Positions 46,472 through 55,535 of a stretch of DNA of 64,000 nt are shown here, in pieces. The notes beneath the pieces are model-generated. The model was not told the origin of the DNA, made no database searches, and saw only the letters and a list, made by a program, of their open reading frames with translations. This DNA comes from Capsulimonas corticalis (GTDB lineage: Bacteria > Armatimonadota > Armatimonadia > Armatimonadales > Capsulimonadaceae), in assembly GCF_003574315.2 (NCBI RefSeq), contig NZ_AP025739.1:744001-808000 (forward strand), written 5' to 3'. Both the position numbers and the translations under genes were made by a program. Positions within the stretch are counted from its first letter, which is position 1; each line of letters begins with the position of its first letter.

Positions 46472-47890
46472 TCACGCCGCCGGCCTGCGGGCCTCCAGCC
46501 AAGATTGGGCGCGCTCGAGCTGCGCCTCCACGGCCGCCTTCCCCGTGCCGCCATAGGCGGCGCGGGCGTCGGCGCTTCCGCGTGGACTGATCAAAGCGGG
46601 CGCATCCACCCCCGTAAACAGAGGCGACGCTTCCGCGAGATCATCGGCGCTCAAATCTTCCAGCGCGCGGCCTTCGGCCACGCAGCGTCCGACGATCTTT
46701 CCTACAACTTCGTGCGCCTGCCGGAACGGCAGTCCCTGACGCACCAGATAATCCGCTAAATCCGTGGCTGTGGAAAAATCGCCGTGGAGCGCACGGGCCA
46801 TGCGCTCGATCTTGAACGCGATATTTTCCAGCAGCGTATGGAGCACCGATAACGAGATCGACGCAGTGTCCAGGGCGTCGAACAGCGGCTCCTTGTCCTC
46901 CTGCATGTCCTTGTTGTAGGCCAGCGGGAGTGACTTCATGATCGTAAGCAGGGCGGTCAAATCGCCATAAACGCGTCCCGTCTTACCGCGAAGAAGCTCC
47001 GCGACATCGGGGTTCTTCTTCTGCGGCATGATGCTGCTGCCCGTGGTGACGTTGTCTCCCATCTCCACGAAGCCGAACTCCGGCGAGCTCCACAGGATCA
47101 GCTCTTCACTGAGCCGCGACAGGTGCATCATCAGGATCGCGACGGCGCTGACGGTCTCAATGGCGAAGTCCCGATCCGAAACGGCGTCCAGGCTGTTCTC
47201 GACGACACCCGCGAAGCCCAGTTCCTGGGCGACGAAGTGGCGATCGATCGGGAAGGTCGTTCCCGCGAGGGCTCCCGCGCCCAGGGGCAGCATGTCGGTC
47301 CGCTTCCATGCGTCGACCAGCCGCTCCCGATCCCGCGACAGCATCCAGAAGTACGCTAAGAGATGGTGCGCCAATCGCACCGGCTGCGCATGCTGCATGT
47401 GGGTGACGCCCGGCAGCAGCGTGTCCAAATTTTGAGACGCCAGTTCGATCAGACGGCTCTGCACGCGCTCTGCTTTCCCCCCCAGGTCCGCGAGCGCGTC
47501 TTTGACGTAGAGCCGAATGTCCGTGGCGACCTGATCGTTGCGCGACCGCGCGGTGTGGAGTTTCCCCGCCACAGGCCCGAGCCGCTGCGTGAGCAGCGAC
47601 TCAACCGCCATGTGGACATCCTCCGCTCCGGGGTCCAGCGCAGCGGTTCCTGTTTCCAGATCCGCCGCCAGCGTCTCCAGACCCGCGACGATTGTTTGCG
47701 AGTCCTCTGCGGGGATTATTCCGCACTTTCCCAGCATTTTCACATGCGCCAAACTGCCCTGAATATCGTAGGGCCAAAGGCGGCGGTCGAAGGACAGGCT
47801 GGCGTTAAATTGATGCACCAGCGCATCGGTCTCCTGGCTGAAACGCCCGGCCCAGAGCTTGGGGGCGTTATTGACGGCTTTATCTGACAT
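46472..47890 (-). CDS. argH: Argininosuccinate lyase
   Basis: 472 residues from ATG at 47890. KLWAGRFSQETDALVHQFNASLSFD is the family N-terminus, HTARSRNDQVATD binds the substrate, and GSSIMPQKKNPDVAELLRGKTGRV is the fumarase/ASL signature loop with the catalytic Ser. It splits argininosuccinate to arginine and fumarate, the last step of arginine synthesis, as a cytosolic tetramer. Its start overlaps the upstream hydrolase by 11 bp, so it belongs to the operon. argG, which supplies its substrate, is not in the window. Confidence 0.97.
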   Translation of the reverse strand: MSDKAVNNAPKLWAGRFSQETDALVHQFNASLSFDRRLWPYDIQGSLAHVKMLGKCGIIPAEDSQTIVAGLETLAADLETGTAALDPGAEDVHMAVESLLTQRLGPVAGKLHTARSRNDQVATDIRLYVKDALADLGGKAERVQSRLIELASQNLDTLLPGVTHMQHAQPVRLAHHLLAYFWMLSRDRERLVDAWKRTDMLPLGAGALAGTTFPIDRHFVAQELGFAGVVENSLDAVSDRDFAIETVSAVAILMMHLSRLSEELILWSSPEFGFVEMGDNVTTGSSIMPQKKNPDVAELLRGKTGRVYGDLTALLTIMKSLPLAYNKDMQEDKEPLFDALDTASISLSVLHTLLENIAFKIERMARALHGDFSTATDLADYLVRQGLPFRQAHEVVGKIVGRCVAEGRALEDLSADDLAEASPLFTGVDAPALISPRGSADARAAYGGTGKAAVEAQLERAQSWLEARRPAA

Positions 47891-48692
47891 GACTGACTTT
47901 GTCCTTTGGGGAGTGTTCAAATATTTCGCGCGCGAACTCGCGCACCTTAGCGGTGAACGCCTCGGGGGCGTCCAGGTTCGCGATATGCCCGCCGGGAACG
48001 GTCGCCGCGCGCGCGTTTTGGGCGGCTCGGACGAATACGCCTTCGGCGCTGCGATGGACCCAGTCGCGGTCGCCGTTCAGGATCAGCGCGGGACCATCGT
48101 AGCGGCCCAAAGCGGCAACGAAGTCGCGCCCTGTCAGGGAAATTACGGCGCGGGCGGCCGATTCCCAGTGGCAGCCGGCCGCGACAATGGACTCCGCGAA
48201 TTCCGACGGCAGCCGGCCGCGCACCCAGCGTTGAAAGCGCCGGGTCAATTGCGCTTCGCGATGGCGAAAGGTCCAGGCTTCGCCGCGCAGCACCAGATAG
48301 CAAACGTGGCCGCGCGCGTCGAACGTACTGCCCGAAACGATCAGGCCGGCCAGAAGATCGGAATCACCGCCGGCAATCGTCACGCCAAGGCAGCCGCCCA
48401 GCGAGACGCCGACGAGCAGCGCGGGACGGCCCGCAATATCGCGAAGAAAGCGCTGGACGTACTCAAGCGAGTCGTCCCAATCGTATTCGGTATGGGAGCA
48501 GCTTCCATGTCCCGGCAGGTCCAGGGCATAGACGCGAAATTCGTCGGCGAGAGCCTGAAGCTGCATGCCCCAGGCTTTGCGCGTATAGCTGGCGCCGTGC
48601 AGAAAGACGATCGGGGGCGCGTCCGCTGGCCCGGCGGCGTCCACGCCGAGCCAATGCGCGATGTTCGGCGGTCCCGCCGCGTCCATCGTCAT
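47880..48692 (-). CDS. Alpha/beta-hydrolase in the arginine operon
   Basis: 270 residues. PIVFLHGASYTRKAWG gives the HG oxyanion region, VYALDLPGHGSC, then VGVSLGGCLGV with the nucleophile Ser, LNGDRDWVH with the Asp and VPGGHIANLDAPEAF with the His. It is a typical soluble esterase/peroxidase-like hydrolase; the substrate is unknown. The start (ATG 48692, or ATG 48686) lies 3 bp after the ArgF-fusion stop and the end overlaps argH by 11 bp, so it is tightly coupled. Hydrolases of this kind are not part of the standard arginine pathway. Confidence 0.85.
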   Translation of the reverse strand: MTMDAAGPPNIAHWLGVDAAGPADAPPIVFLHGASYTRKAWGMQLQALADEFRVYALDLPGHGSCSHTEYDWDDSLEYVQRFLRDIAGRPALLVGVSLGGCLGVTIAGGDSDLLAGLIVSGSTFDARGHVCYLVLRGEAWTFRHREAQLTRRFQRWVRGRLPSEFAESIVAAGCHWESAARAVISLTGRDFVAALGRYDGPALILNGDRDWVHRSAEGVFVRAAQNARAATVPGGHIANLDAPEAFTAKVREFAREIFEHSPKDKVSHVR

Positions 48693-48695
48693 CGC

Positions 48696-50546
48696 TTAGA
48701 GCACCAGCGACATGACGGCTTTTTGCGCGTGCAGGCGGTTCTCGGCCTGATCGAACACGACCGACTGCGGGCCTTCCAGCACATCCGCCGTGATCTCCTC
48801 GCCCCGGTGCGCGGGCAGGCAGTGCATCACCAGCGCGTCCGGCTTCGCAAGCGCGACCAGCTCCGCATTCACCTGAAACGGCGCGAAGATCTTCAGGCGC
48901 TCCGCCGTTTCTTCTTCCTGGCCCATCGATGTCCAGACATCGGTGTAAACGGCGTCGGCGTCCCTGACGCCCTCGGTCACATTGTCGGTGATGGTCAGCG
49001 TCGCGCCGGTTTCGGCGGCGCATCCCAGCGCGACCTGCCAGAGCGCCTCATCGGGCTCGTAGCCCTTGGGGCAGGCGATGGTGAAGTCCACGCCAACCTT
49101 CGCGGCCAGCAGCATCAGCGAGTGCGCCACGTTGTTGCCGTCGCCAACGTACGTCATCTTGAGGCCCGCCAGCCGTCCCTTGCGCTCCCCCAGCGTCTGG
49201 AAATCGGCGAGCGCCTGACACGGATGCTCCCGATCGCTCAGGCCGTTGATCACGGGGATACTGGCGTACTCGGCCAGATCCAGCACCGTCTGGTGCGCGA
49301 ACGTCCGCGCCATGATCCCATCGATCCAGCGATCCAGGTTGCGCGCGACATCCGGAACGGTCTCCCGGACTCCCAGACGCCCTTCCAGATAGATCGCATG
49401 GCCGCCCAGCTGGGTCATGCCCGCCTCGAAGGTAACGCGCGTGCGCAGCGACGGCTTTTCAAAGAGCAGCGCCAGGGTCTGCCCCTGCGCGAATTGCGTC
49501 TGGGTGACATCGTACTTGTTCGCCTTGAGCCGGGCCGCAACATCCAGGATCAGCATGATCTCGGCGCGCGTCAATTGTTCGATGCCGATAATGTCGCGGC
49601 CGCGCAGGGCGTGCTGGCTGAGGACATCGGCGATCGGGGAGACTCCGACGGGAGCCGCCATGCGCTGCGAAGTGACGGGAGAGAAGTTCTGCTGCGCGCC
49701 ATCCCCATCCGGACACGTCTCCGGCAGCGGCCGAGGCAGCACGCGCATCACGAGCGCTTCGCCATACGGCGTCGAGCGCTCCGACAGGAGAAGCTCGTAA
49801 CCGCGGCCGCCGTAGGCGACCGTGATCGCGCCGGTCGTCCCCGGCGCGGCGGGGGAGTTGATCATGCTCCGATAGCGCGCCACCAGCGGGAGCAGAAAAT
49901 GCTTGGGAACGGTCGTCGCCTCGCTGAACGAGCCCCACGCCAGATGCGCCACGCGCACATCGCCTTCTCGCGGCTCGATATGCACTTCCACAACCTGCTC
50001 CTTCAGCGCCTCCTGAAGGATCTGAGTCGCCATGCGGATGATCGGCGAATCGCCGCCGCCATGCGTTTCCAGGTCCGTCGGATCCTGCGCATTTTGCAGC
50101 AATGAGATTTCGGCGAGCAGCGCCGCCTCGCCCGCGCCGGCCTTGGTCAGCGCGGCGGAGATCGGGCTGTCCTCGAGACGCGTCAGCGCCACCAGCAGAT
50201 GCTCGGTGCCGATATACGATTCGTAGAGCGATTTCGCCGCCGCGTCCGCCAGATCCAGAACGCCCGAGGCTTCGGTTGTCAGCGGCCGCTCGCGGCTCGC
50301 CGACAGCGACAGCGGCAGATCGTGCTCCACGCTCTCCCCTTCGCCCGCCATCTGGTCCGCCGCCTTGGTCAGCGCCTCGACATTGACGCCCAGACGCGCC
50401 AGCACATAATCGGCCACGCCTTCCGTCTCGCCCAGCAGCGCAATATAAATATGCTCCGGCGTAATCTCCGCATGCGACCGCCGCGCCGCTTCCTGCTGCG
50501 CCGAGAATAGCACCATCCGCGCGTTAAGGGTCAATTGTTTAGACAT
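48696..50546 (-). CDS. argF: Fusion protein: Clp_N repeats - GspE-like domain - ornithine carbamoyltransferase
   Basis: 616 residues in one frame. Residues 1-150 hold two Clp R repeats (ITPEHIYIALLGETEGVADYVL; IGTEHLLVALTRLEDSPISAAL). Residues ~166-270 resemble the N-terminal part of the GspE/PilB ATPase domain (SPIIRMATQILQEAL, VEVHIEPREGDVRV, YGEALVMRVLP), stopping before any Walker A. Residues ~303-616 are a full ornithine carbamoyltransferase: FEKPSLRTRVTFE, HPCQALADF, VGDGNNVAHSL, HCLPAHRGEE. It should make citrulline from ornithine and carbamoyl phosphate. GGAG precedes the start; internal Met296 has no SD, so a real fusion is favoured. Confidence 0.88.
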   Translation of the reverse strand: MSKQLTLNARMVLFSAQQEAARRSHAEITPEHIYIALLGETEGVADYVLARLGVNVEALTKAADQMAGEGESVEHDLPLSLSASRERPLTTEASGVLDLADAAAKSLYESYIGTEHLLVALTRLEDSPISAALTKAGAGEAALLAEISLLQNAQDPTDLETHGGGDSPIIRMATQILQEALKEQVVEVHIEPREGDVRVAHLAWGSFSEATTVPKHFLLPLVARYRSMINSPAAPGTTGAITVAYGGRGYELLLSERSTPYGEALVMRVLPRPLPETCPDGDGAQQNFSPVTSQRMAAPVGVSPIADVLSQHALRGRDIIGIEQLTRAEIMLILDVAARLKANKYDVTQTQFAQGQTLALLFEKPSLRTRVTFEAGMTQLGGHAIYLEGRLGVRETVPDVARNLDRWIDGIMARTFAHQTVLDLAEYASIPVINGLSDREHPCQALADFQTLGERKGRLAGLKMTYVGDGNNVAHSLMLLAAKVGVDFTIACPKGYEPDEALWQVALGCAAETGATLTITDNVTEGVRDADAVYTDVWTSMGQEEETAERLKIFAPFQVNAELVALAKPDALVMHCLPAHRGEEITADVLEGPQSVVFDQAENRLHAQKAVMSLVL

Positions 50547-50587
50547 CGTTGTTTTCTCCGGGGTGGGACCTATTTATCCGCGTTAGT

Positions 50588-50841
50588 CCCTATTCCCCCG
50601 GCGCTTTAGCGCGCTTTTCCCCTTTTTCCCAACAAGCCGCTTCGCGGGGGAAAAGGGGTGCTGATCACTGCCGTCCATTCACTCGTTACATGACCGTGAG
50701 GAGATTGCTTGCGTATGCCGAATGCTCCTCATACATACTTGTCGAGCGAGAATGGCTTCAATGAATAGCTCCCCTTTTCCCCTGCGAAGCAGCTTGTTGG
50801 GAAAAAGGGGGAAAGCGCGCTAAAGCGCCGGGGGAATAGGG
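50588..50841. repeat. Giant inverted repeat, family C (71-bp arms) in the arginine operon
   Basis: Arms 50588-50658 and 50771-50841 are 71 nt each and pair with about five mismatches; the spacer is 112 bp. Arms contain CCCCCGGCGCTTTAGCGCGC, sharing the GGCGC-TT-GCGC core with family A. The spacer holds GAGGAG...CTCCTC and no gene. The repeat fills most of the 319-bp gap between the Clp_N gene and the ArgF fusion gene and would form a very stable RNA hairpin in the operon transcript. Nothing else was found in the gap. Confidence 0.9.
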
Positions 50842-50865
50842 ATGAGCGCAAGGCCCATACACAGC

Positions 50866-51300
50866 CTACTTCCCGATCTCGCCCCGCACCTTCTCCGTCG
50901 TCACGCCGTGCTCCGCGAGCAAACGGCCCGCCGCGCCTTCTTCCTCGCGGACCAGGCCCAGCAAAATATGCTCCGTGCCGATTTCGCCGGCGTTGTTTTC
51001 GCCCGCTTCCTGTTCGGCCAGGGCCAGCGCCATTTGCGCGGCTTCGGTGAACTCCAGTTTCCAGACCGGCAGCAGCGCTTCGCCGGACTCCGCGCCGGTC
51101 TCGATGTCGCCTTGCAGCACATCGAGGTCGACGCCCAGGCGGGTGATGATCGCGCACGCGACGTTTGTGCGCAGCGCCAGCAGGCCGAGCAGCAGGTGCT
51201 CGGTGTCCACTTCGTTCTGCCCGAAGCGACGCGCTTCTTCTTTCGAACGATAAATCACGCCGGCGGCGCTCAGTGTCAGGTTATCCCCCATGGCAGGCAT
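50866..51300 (-). CDS. Stand-alone Clp N-terminal (Clp R) domain protein
   Basis: 144 residues from ATG at 51300 (AGGGA about 9 nt upstream). Two Clp R repeats fill the protein: DTEHLLLGLLALRTNVACAII and GTEHILLGLVREEEGAAGRLL, as in ClpC or the plant ClpT/ClpS1 type. There is no AAA+ module. In Clp machines this domain binds adaptors and substrates; alone it might dock to ClpC or regulate it. It lies between argD and the ArgF fusion, which starts with the same domain type, so the two may interact. Confidence 0.85.
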   Translation of the reverse strand: MPAMGDNLTLSAAGVIYRSKEEARRFGQNEVDTEHLLLGLLALRTNVACAIITRLGVDLDVLQGDIETGAESGEALLPVWKLEFTEAAQMALALAEQEAGENNAGEIGTEHILLGLVREEEGAAGRLLAEHGVTTEKVRGEIGK

Positions 51301-51346
51301 TGTTTCGTTCCCTTCTCGGTTCCCAGCGAACATTGGACAGAATGAA

Positions 51347-52582
<1,236 letters not shown>

Positions 52583-52588
52583 AAATCT

Positions 52589-53455
52589 TTACCGTCGAAT
52601 CATCGTCCCGATCCCTTGATCGGTGAATACTTCAATCAAAAGAGCGTGCGGCAGCCGGCCATCGATAATATGCGCACGCTCGACGCCGCCGGCGATAGCC
52701 GCGACGCATGATTCAATCTTGGGGATCATCCCCTTGTCCACCACGCCGTCCGTAATCAGCTGGCGCGCGTCCTTCACGGTCATCTGTGAGATCAAACTGT
52801 CTTTGTCCGCGAAGTCTTGATAGATCCCCTCGACATCGGTCATCACGATCAATTTGCTCGCCGACAGCGCCGCCGCCAGCTCACCCGCAACGGTGTCCGC
52901 ATTGACATTATAGCTCTCGCCCTCGGCGCCGATTGCGACGCTGGAGATCACGGGGATATACCCCGCCGCCGACAGCGTGTGCAGCAATTCAGGATTGATC
53001 TTGACCACGCGTCCCACAAACCCGATATCGCCCTTGGTCGTCTCACGTTCGGCGACGATCAAGTTTCCATCCTTGCCGCTCAACCCCACCGCCTGCCCGC
53101 CCTGCTTGTTCAGGTGCGCGACGATGTTCTTATTCGTCTTCCCCGTCAGCACCATCTCGACGATCTCCATCGTCTCAGCGTCCGTGACGCGCAGTCCGCC
53201 GACAAACGCCGGCTCTTTGCCCATCCGCTGCATGGCGTCGCTGATCTCCGGCCCGCCGCCATGAACCAGGATCGCATTGATCCCGACATAACGCATCAGA
53301 ATAATATCCTGCATTACAGCGGCCTTCAATGTCTCATCAATCATGGCGTTCCCGCCATACTTAATGACAATCGTCTTGCCGGAATATTGCTTGATATACG
53401 GCAACGCCTGGATCAGGACTTCGGCCGCCTGGTTCGGTTGTTTTTGGTTTGGCAT
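52589..53455 (-). CDS. argB: Acetylglutamate kinase
   Basis: 288 residues. TIVIKYGGNAM (phosphate-binding Lys and Gly), LVHGGGPEIS, GLRVTDAETMEIVEMVLTGK and NVNADTVAGELAAAL are all ArgB signatures. It phosphorylates N-acetylglutamate, normally the feedback-controlled step; the N-terminal extension that carries the arginine-sensing helix in hexameric enzymes (QAAEVLIQALPYIKQYSGK) is present, so arginine inhibition is likely. The start lies 3 bp after the stop of the DUF559 gene. Confidence 0.97.
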   Translation of the reverse strand: MPNQKQPNQAAEVLIQALPYIKQYSGKTIVIKYGGNAMIDETLKAAVMQDIILMRYVGINAILVHGGGPEISDAMQRMGKEPAFVGGLRVTDAETMEIVEMVLTGKTNKNIVAHLNKQGGQAVGLSGKDGNLIVAERETTKGDIGFVGRVVKINPELLHTLSAAGYIPVISSVAIGAEGESYNVNADTVAGELAAALSASKLIVMTDVEGIYQDFADKDSLISQMTVKDARQLITDGVVDKGMIPKIESCVAAIAGGVERAHIIDGRLPHALLIEVFTDQGIGTMIRR

Positions 53456-54269: not shown

Positions 54270-55535
54270 TTAGGTATGATACTCCGCGTTGATCTTCACG
54301 TAATCATAGCTGAAATCGCAGGTCCAGACGGTGGCGGTTTCGCCGCCCGCTTGGTGAAAGTCTACCAGAATTTGGACTTCCTTGGCTTTCATGGCTTCGG
54401 AAACGACGTAGCCGTTGAAATCCGTCGGCATGCCGTCGCGGTAGACGGTAGTGCCGGCGAGGGCGATTTCGACTTTTTCGGGCTCGAAGTTGACGCCGGC
54501 GCGGCCGGCGGCGGCGAGGATGCGGCCCCAGTTGGGGTCGTTGCCAAAGAGCGCCGTTTTGACGAGCGGCGAATTGGCGATGGTCTTCGCGACGGAGCGC
54601 GGGAAGCCGGCGCGGTGCTCGGGACTGATCTCGCGGCCGTTGGCGGCGAAGGCGCTGGCGATGTGCTCAGGGACGGCGACATTCTGCACGGTCACTTCCA
54701 CCAGCTTCGTGGCGCCCTCGCCGTCGCGGGCGATCTCTTTGGCGAGGTGCAGGCAGACGCTGAAAAGCGCCTTCTCGAACTCGCGGGCGTCGGCGCTTTC
54801 CAGGCTATCGATAATCTTGTTGCCGGCGAGGCCGTTCGCCAACACAAGCGTCATATCGTTGGTGCTGGTGTCGCCGTCCACGGTAATGGAGTTGAAGGTG
54901 TACCAGGCCACCCGCCGCAGCATCTCCTGAAGAACGGGCTGCTCGATCGCGGCGTCGGTGGTGATGAACCCGAGCATCGTCGCCATGTTCGGCGCGATCA
55001 TGCCCGAGCCCTTGGCGATGGCGCCGAGGCGTACGGTCTTACCGTCCAGGGTGAACTCGACCGCGACTTGCTTCGGGAAAGTGTCGGTGGTCATGATCGC
55101 CTGCGCGGTGTCGTCGCACTCTTCGCCGTGCAGCTTGCCGGCGGCGTCGACGATCCCCGCGATGATCTTCTCCATCGGCAGCTTATGGCCGATCACGCCG
55201 GTGCTGGCGCTGAGCACGCGCCGCATCGGAACGCCGAGCGCCTCGGCGGCGTGCTGCACCATCGCAACGGCGTCGGTGAAGCCCTGATCGCCGTTGCAGG
55301 CGTTAGCGTTGCCGCTATTGACGACGATGGCGCGGGCCAATCCCTCTTCCAAATACGCCTGATTGCTCACGACGCACGGCGCCTTGACGACATTCGTGGT
55401 GAAGACGCCCGCCGCCGCCGCCTCGACATCCGAGACGATCAGCGCCAGATCGTTGCGCTTCCGCTTGATGCCGCAGTAAACGCCGGCGGTCTTAAAACCT
55501 TGAGGGGCGACGATGCCGCCCGGAATAATGTCCAT
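54270..55535 (-). CDS. argJ: Bifunctional ornithine acetyltransferase / N-acetylglutamate synthase
   Basis: 421 residues. VVNSGNANACNGDQG, STGVIGHKLPMEKI and the autocleavage site KGSGMIAPNMATMLGF are ArgJ hallmarks; the chain cuts itself before Thr of ATMLGF, and that Thr becomes the nucleophile. It moves the acetyl group from N-acetylornithine to glutamate, recycling it. Whether it can also use acetyl-CoA (true bifunctional) cannot be read; no separate NAGS is seen in the operon apart from the GNAT upstream. Confidence 0.97.
   Translation of the reverse strand: MDIIPGGIVAPQGFKTAGVYCGIKRKRNDLALIVSDVEAAAAGVFTTNVVKAPCVVSNQAYLEEGLARAIVVNSGNANACNGDQGFTDAVAMVQHAAEALGVPMRRVLSASTGVIGHKLPMEKIIAGIVDAAGKLHGEECDDTAQAIMTTDTFPKQVAVEFTLDGKTVRLGAIAKGSGMIAPNMATMLGFITTDAAIEQPVLQEMLRRVAWYTFNSITVDGDTSTNDMTLVLANGLAGNKIIDSLESADAREFEKALFSVCLHLAKEIARDGEGATKLVEVTVQNVAVPEHIASAFAANGREISPEHRAGFPRSVAKTIANSPLVKTALFGNDPNWGRILAAAGRAGVNFEPEKVEIALAGTTVYRDGMPTDFNGYVVSEAMKAKEVQILVDFHQAGGETATVWTCDFSYDYVKINAEYHT

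Follow-up and report, generated by a model that had tools for sequence, protein, structure and literature searches.

Ornithine carbamoyltransferase with a ClpC-type N-terminal domain in Capsulimonas corticalis and its recurrence in Armatimonadota

The window analyzed here is a stretch of 64,000 nucleotides from the genome of Capsulimonas corticalis. It contains a one-strand arginine cluster with the order argJ, argB, argD, a gene for a separate 155-residue Clp_N protein, a fused argF, an alpha/beta hydrolase gene and argH. The features of this locus are as follows.

46472..47920, minus strand: argH, with relatives in arginine clusters of other genomes
47880..48692, minus strand: alpha/beta hydrolase, directly 3' of the fused gene and also present in the related genome G129
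48696..50546, minus strand: fused argF (Clp_N tandem, GspE-N2D-like domain and ornithine carbamoyltransferase, ArgF), 616 aa, ATG start
48699..49610, minus strand: complete ArgF (ornithine carbamoyltransferase, OTC) domain, residues 313-616
49734..50054, minus strand: GspE/PilB N2D-like domain, residues 165-271, without Walker A/B
50097..50537, minus strand: ClpC-type Clp_N tandem, residues 4-150, with pocket-equivalent residues T6, E31, T90 and E115
50556..50559, minus strand: Shine-Dalgarno sequence GGAG, 9 nt upstream of the fused-argF ATG
50866..51333, minus strand: separate Clp_N tandem protein, 155 aa, between argD and the fused argF, pocket residues kept too
51347..52582, minus strand: argD (class-III aminotransferase), by Pfam
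52589..53455, minus strand: argB (acetylglutamate kinase family), by Pfam
54270..55535, minus strand: argJ, by Pfam

The architecture of the fused gene had been described correctly in the initial annotation, but the separate Clp_N gene directly upstream (50866-51333) was missing from that description. Between this gene and the fused argF lies a MITE-like element (50580-50849), whose 91-nt inverted arms are 89% complementary, with 88 nt between them. The genome contains 32 matches to its core motif, and some pairs of matches, about 1.5 kb apart, may be full insertion sequences. Because of this element, the fusion may be transcribed separately from argD.

The fused gene is a single intact frame of 616 codons in which a tandem Clp_N is followed by the N2D domain of GspE/PilB without the motor and by a complete ArgF. 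Searches of Pfam, NCBIfam and solved structures agree with this order as it was first read from the sequence, and the Shine-Dalgarno sequence reported at the far N-terminus is also in place. The Clp_N part matches Pfam in two repeats with E=6.8e-20, and its top matches among solved structures are all ClpC N-domains. No AAA+ modules or Walker A/B motifs were found by domain searches of the fused ArgF beyond the N-domain stretch, and the protein is not a Clp AAA+ unfoldase. The ArgF part matches OTCace_N with E=2.7e-44 and OTCace with E=1.3e-61. The fused protein scores 402.7 bits against TIGR00658, the OTC equivalog, passing the curated cut-off of 280.85, and the motifs SLRTR (SxRT), HPCQ and HCLP are all present; from this score and these motifs it is predicted to be a working ornithine carbamoyltransferase. 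The closest solved relatives of the ArgF part, 1PVV and 1A1S, are ornithine carbamoyltransferases with which it shares the whole fold; the difference is about 310 extra N-terminal residues in the window protein, forming two unrelated domains. The fused argF is the sole strong OTC match in the single-contig 7.65-Mb genome, and a second OTCace_N match, at C1:5817588, is probably pyrB. A single-sequence AlphaFold model of residues 1-300 has a pLDDT of 37.8, which is too low for confidence, and its order of helices and strands fits Clp_N followed by N2D.

A sequencing or assembly error joining two genes, which the initial annotation named as a way for its reading to fail, is ruled out as the source of the fusion, because dozens of genomes assembled independently of one another show the same architecture (37 fused genomes in all), the genome is a single contig, and a full-length relative with 59% identity is encoded in G129. 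The exclusive start at Met296 considered at the same time is largely argued against by the sequence: no Shine-Dalgarno sequence was found ahead of this internal methionine, and the Clp_N part is under purifying selection. It is likewise highly improbable that the locus gives two proteins in practice, with internal initiation at Met296 or proteolysis freeing a plain ArgF and a Clp_N-N2D protein. Such a division would fit the separate Clp_N protein encoded next door and the SQRMA-P motif (residues 293-297), which family f1 and the unfused ArgF of G027 have in common, but the SQR before Met296 is also conserved and so presumably translated, and the same-frame fusion is kept across families.

Regarding the middle domain, its T2SSE Pfam match covers positions 4-113 of 370 with E=8.6e-5, just short of the Pfam cut-off. 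The NCBIfam GspE model matches residues 148-272 of the fused protein with E=1.7e-11, a GspE/PilB paralog from the same genome (L147) matches the insert with E=2e-17, and structures of GspE, PilF and PilB match its entire N2D domain with E of about 1e-6. The homology therefore extends over the whole N2D domain, and the arrangement that defines the secretion ATPases (PF00437: N2D and then Walker A/B) is absent. In GspE, PilB and PilF (1P9R, 5OIU), the same complete domain of about 105 residues is followed by the Walker A/B ATPase domain, whereas in the window protein it is followed by ArgF. Since Walker A/B are lacking, the insert alone is not a nucleotide-motor lobe, and the earlier reading of the GspE part as such a lobe has to be dropped. 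Among the argF genes surveyed in the phylum, the insert is limited to the window and G129, which belongs to the same family but to another genus; the closest GspE/PilB protein of the window genome to both inserts is a 655-aa protein at C1:5930662. The GspE-like piece was probably added in the Capsulimonas-like lineage, and its restriction to this lineage makes a central role in function unlikely. The N2D domain inserted in this family f1 fusion is presumably PAS-like in fold.

A survey of Armatimonadota argF genes for the same N-terminus, as proposed in the initial annotation, was carried out by searching the argF surroundings of the phylum's genomes with profiles made from proteins of the window, and 126 ArgFs could be classified. 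An N-terminal ClpC-type Clp_N tandem is present on 37 of them, in 12 families (f1, f2, f4, f5, f7, f8, f9, f18, f19, f24, f35 and f36). A separate Clp_N gene lies close upstream of argF in five cases (f3, f9), ArgF is fused to ArgD instead in 15, and 69 ArgFs are plain. Family f7 has a separate Clp_N gene in addition to the fused domain, and family f19 has three Clp_N tandems within one protein. In nearly all loci whose flank is covered, the fused gene directly follows argD or an intervening Clp_N gene, and the fused and adjacent-gene forms together make a Rosetta-stone pattern. None of the 80 ArgF loci returned by a scan of 84,980 species genomes, mostly of other phyla, carries a Clp_N-fused ArgF. 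Bacillaceae matches spanning residues 4-616 were rejected as fusions, as clpB sits downstream of argF there. Recoding was also rejected for G016, G001 and G107, where Clp_N and ArgF are parted by an in-frame stop; the stop is an ordinary TAA or TGA separating distinct ORFs. The ArgD-ArgF fusion is found as a single frame in family f14 and genus g8, for example at L246:1398-3512 (+) and L129:1288-3501 (+).

Clp_N is also attached to other proteins in the phylum. In G129, a Clp_N tandem is fused to a cytochrome P450 (L333:2106-3953, minus strand), and an ECF sigma factor carries a C-terminal Clp_N (L332:2604-4217, plus strand). A GGDEF protein with a ribbon-helix-helix in G030 has a C-terminal Clp_N as well (L340:3553-4785, minus strand), and the domain occurs on membrane proteins. 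The pairing of GspE with Clp_N recurs without ArgF in G106 (L331:2237-4437, plus strand) and in G125 (L341:3277-4956, minus strand), where a GspE-like ATPase, judged by eye in G125, bears a C-terminal Clp_N. The window genome itself encodes a 300-aa Clp_N protein at C1:2730638 (L143:3639-4541, plus strand) with a weakly N2D-like C-terminus (hhalign E 2.7e-4, 20% identity), which is a possible Clp_N-N2D paralog without ArgF.

The Clp_N part of the fused ArgFs derives from ClpC. Identities between the fused domains and Armatimonadota ClpC N-domains range from about 30% to 93%; the window copy is the most diverged, with 31% identity to the N-domain of its own ClpC, and that of G129 is 91% identical to its own. 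The synonymous difference between the G129 fused Clp_N and its own clpC is 23%, compared with 62-63% to the ClpC of relatives, and the corresponding values for G021 are 49% and 86%. Because the difference to its own clpC is far below that to the ClpC of relatives, the G129 domain must have been renewed from clpC, and this re-copying is clear at the nucleotide level whatever the number of original fusions. The window and G129 share ArgF and the GspE-like insert; thus, either clpC sequence replaced the G129 Clp_N through gene conversion or recapture, or the Clp_N of the window was exchanged. In the Clp_N tree, the G129 and f3 domains nest inside ClpC clades and the G021 domain joins its own ClpC. 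Judging from these sequences, clpC has apparently donated its N-domain more than once. On the ArgF tree, fusion state must have changed at least 12 times; for a single clade of fused Clp_N, as expected from one ancient fusion, the AU test gives no formal rejection (p 0.135). General within-genome homogenization with clpC was rejected, since the nearest relative of the fused domain is usually not the ClpC of the same genome. As Clp_N has been re-copied from the resident clpC, selection seems to keep the domain matched to the partners of ClpC.

In close pairs, the Clp_N of fused ArgF is under purifying selection. Within-genus pairs whose synonymous sites are unsaturated give it a dN/dS of 0.02-0.33, in several pairs close to that of ArgF, and this constraint suggests that the fused Clp_N is translated. 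Between the window and G129, pN is about equal to pS and no constraint is visible, because the Clp_N parts are not orthologous there, one of them having been replaced. These values bear on the view that Clp_N is a sticky domain, easily copied in this phylum, which aids folding or oligomerization or does nothing, its gain and loss being near-neutral. The frequent changes of fusion state, the high divergence of the window copy and the many other protein types with Clp_N all agree with such a passenger role, and the accessory use of the domain on many proteins gives the ArgF case less weight as a purposeful invention. However, the purifying selection in close pairs is strong, the fusion recurs at one gene in one operon, and the pocket residues are among the most conserved, so we consider this view unlikely. 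ArgF is the only Clp_N partner found recurring across families.

In ClpC, the N-domain binds phospho-arginine in two pockets dependent on E32 and E106, and this binding recruits substrates and allosterically activates the unfoldase (PMC12583610). Free phospho-arginine also binds the N-domain and activates ClpC at 0.1-1 mM, while plain arginine does not activate it (PMC12583610). The fused tandem resembles the ClpC N-domains of B. subtilis (PDB 5HBN) and S. aureus (PMC12583610) in its two repeats and in keeping the pocket residues T7, E32, T81 and E106, but it sits on ArgF, with no AAA+ unfoldase. The window equivalents are T6, E31, T90 and E115, respectively, and the separate Clp_N protein likewise keeps all four. 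Across the fused ArgFs, the E106, E32 and T7 equivalents have a conservation of 0.95, 0.92 and 0.84, respectively, and the two glutamates are among the most conserved Clp_N columns. Their conservation need not mean phospho-arginine binding, since these residues lie in helices that are conserved in Clp_N generally.

An McsB-like arginine kinase is encoded directly before clpC in the window genome; its NCBIfam match has an E value of 1.6e-85 but falls under the curated equivalog cut-offs. This kinase (L145:2430-3617, plus strand) carries TSSLANCGTG at the site where Bacillus McsB has TSCPTNVGTG. McsB is present in 31 of the 37 fused genomes compared with 42 of 84 genomes with plain or ArgD-fused ArgF (Fisher p 5e-4 on raw counts), and the six fused genomes without a detected McsB are all MAGs of 73-92% completeness. 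With phylogeny accounted for, which leaves too few independent contrasts (5 pairs), the association is not significant, and the fusion follows McsB in raw counts only. McsB was detected in none of the five adjacent-gene forms, and many McsB-bearing Armatimonadota have plain ArgF.

We tentatively favor, at somewhat less than even confidence, a reading in which Clp_N is a ClpC-type recognition or docking arm that couples ArgF to McsB-ClpC via phospho-arginine or Clp adaptors, because the fusion recurs in one operon, its N-domain is of ClpC type, under purifying selection and renewed from clpC, the pocket residues are kept, and McsB adjoins clpC. Against this reading stand the strong divergence of the window copy, the lack of visible constraint between the window and G129, the association with McsB in raw counts only, the adjacent-gene forms in which McsB was not detected, and the many McsB-bearing genomes with plain ArgF. 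The arm would bind ligands of the ClpC N-domain, either phospho-arginine (protein-bound or free) or adaptors such as McsA, McsB or MecA-like proteins, and would tie the amount, activity or location of ArgF to the McsB-ClpC system of protein-arginine phosphorylation and proteolysis. For example, ArgF might be slowed or relocated when phospho-arginine clients pile up, and a trimeric ArgF would display the arm three times, which could provide avidity. The idea of ClpC recruitment or phospho-arginine sensing in the initial annotation is thus partly and indirectly supported by the ClpC-type domain, the conserved pocket and McsB beside clpC, but not by the correlation with McsB, which is phylogenetically non-significant. 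A more specific proposal, that fused ArgF reads McsB-made phospho-arginine, free or protein-bound, through the captured ClpC N-domain and so directly controls arginine synthesis, is doubtful.

The resting state of ClpC is stabilized by contacts of the N-domain with the M-domain and AAA1 (PMC12583610). On this basis, a degron-like or anti-degron N-domain could dock ArgF in trans on the M-domains/AAA1 of ClpC, so that ArgF levels follow ClpCP activity and phospho-arginine is not the signal. Most fused genomes encode ClpC, and the fused N-domain is of the ClpC type, but where ClpC has K85, a resting-state contact, the window protein has S94, and we give this turnover route a low probability. Alternatively, Clp_N might bind arginine, phospho-arginine or a related metabolite and control ArgF allosterically without ClpC. 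The kept pocket residues, the location of the fusion in an arginine operon and the presumed PAS-like N2D insert are compatible with such a sensor, as is the response of ClpC to free phospho-arginine. The failure of plain arginine to activate ClpC speaks against it, and renewal from clpC suggests matching to the partners of ClpC and not metabolite specialization, which makes a sensor of this kind quite unlikely.

Protein-mediated control of ornithine carbamoyltransferase has a precedent in yeast, where the enzyme is inhibited by arginase (epiarginasic control); there, a separate enzyme is the inhibitor and not an attached Clp domain. Mycobacterial ClpC2 is likewise a copy of the ClpC N-domain outside the unfoldase, and it competes with ClpC1 for the ligand cyclomarin (PMC10030653). 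ClpC2 is a non-enzyme with its own N-terminal dimerization domain and represses its own transcription (PMC10030653), and the separate 155-aa Clp_N neighbor resembles it more than the fused ArgF does. Among the full texts searched, no paper mentions ornithine carbamoyltransferase together with Clp_N, or arginine phosphorylation and McsB together with arginine biosynthesis, and none reports a central amino-acid enzyme with an (apparently repeatedly) acquired recognition domain of a regulatory protease. The fused ArgF is a real, conserved combination of known domains that is unreported in these texts.

Clp_N serves as an accessory domain in Armatimonadota, and its apparently repeated capture by ArgF suggests that arginine synthesis is connected, in a way not known before, to a system that recognizes phosphorylated arginine and disposes of proteins. 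Should phospho-arginine prove to be the ligand, the fusion would tie arginine biosynthesis to the phospho-arginine degradation tag in a readily testable way, and would be a precedent from nature for ClpC N-domains as enzyme control modules. Reading of phospho-arginine by ArgF, if true, would close a loop between the supply of arginine and the degradation of arginine-marked proteins.
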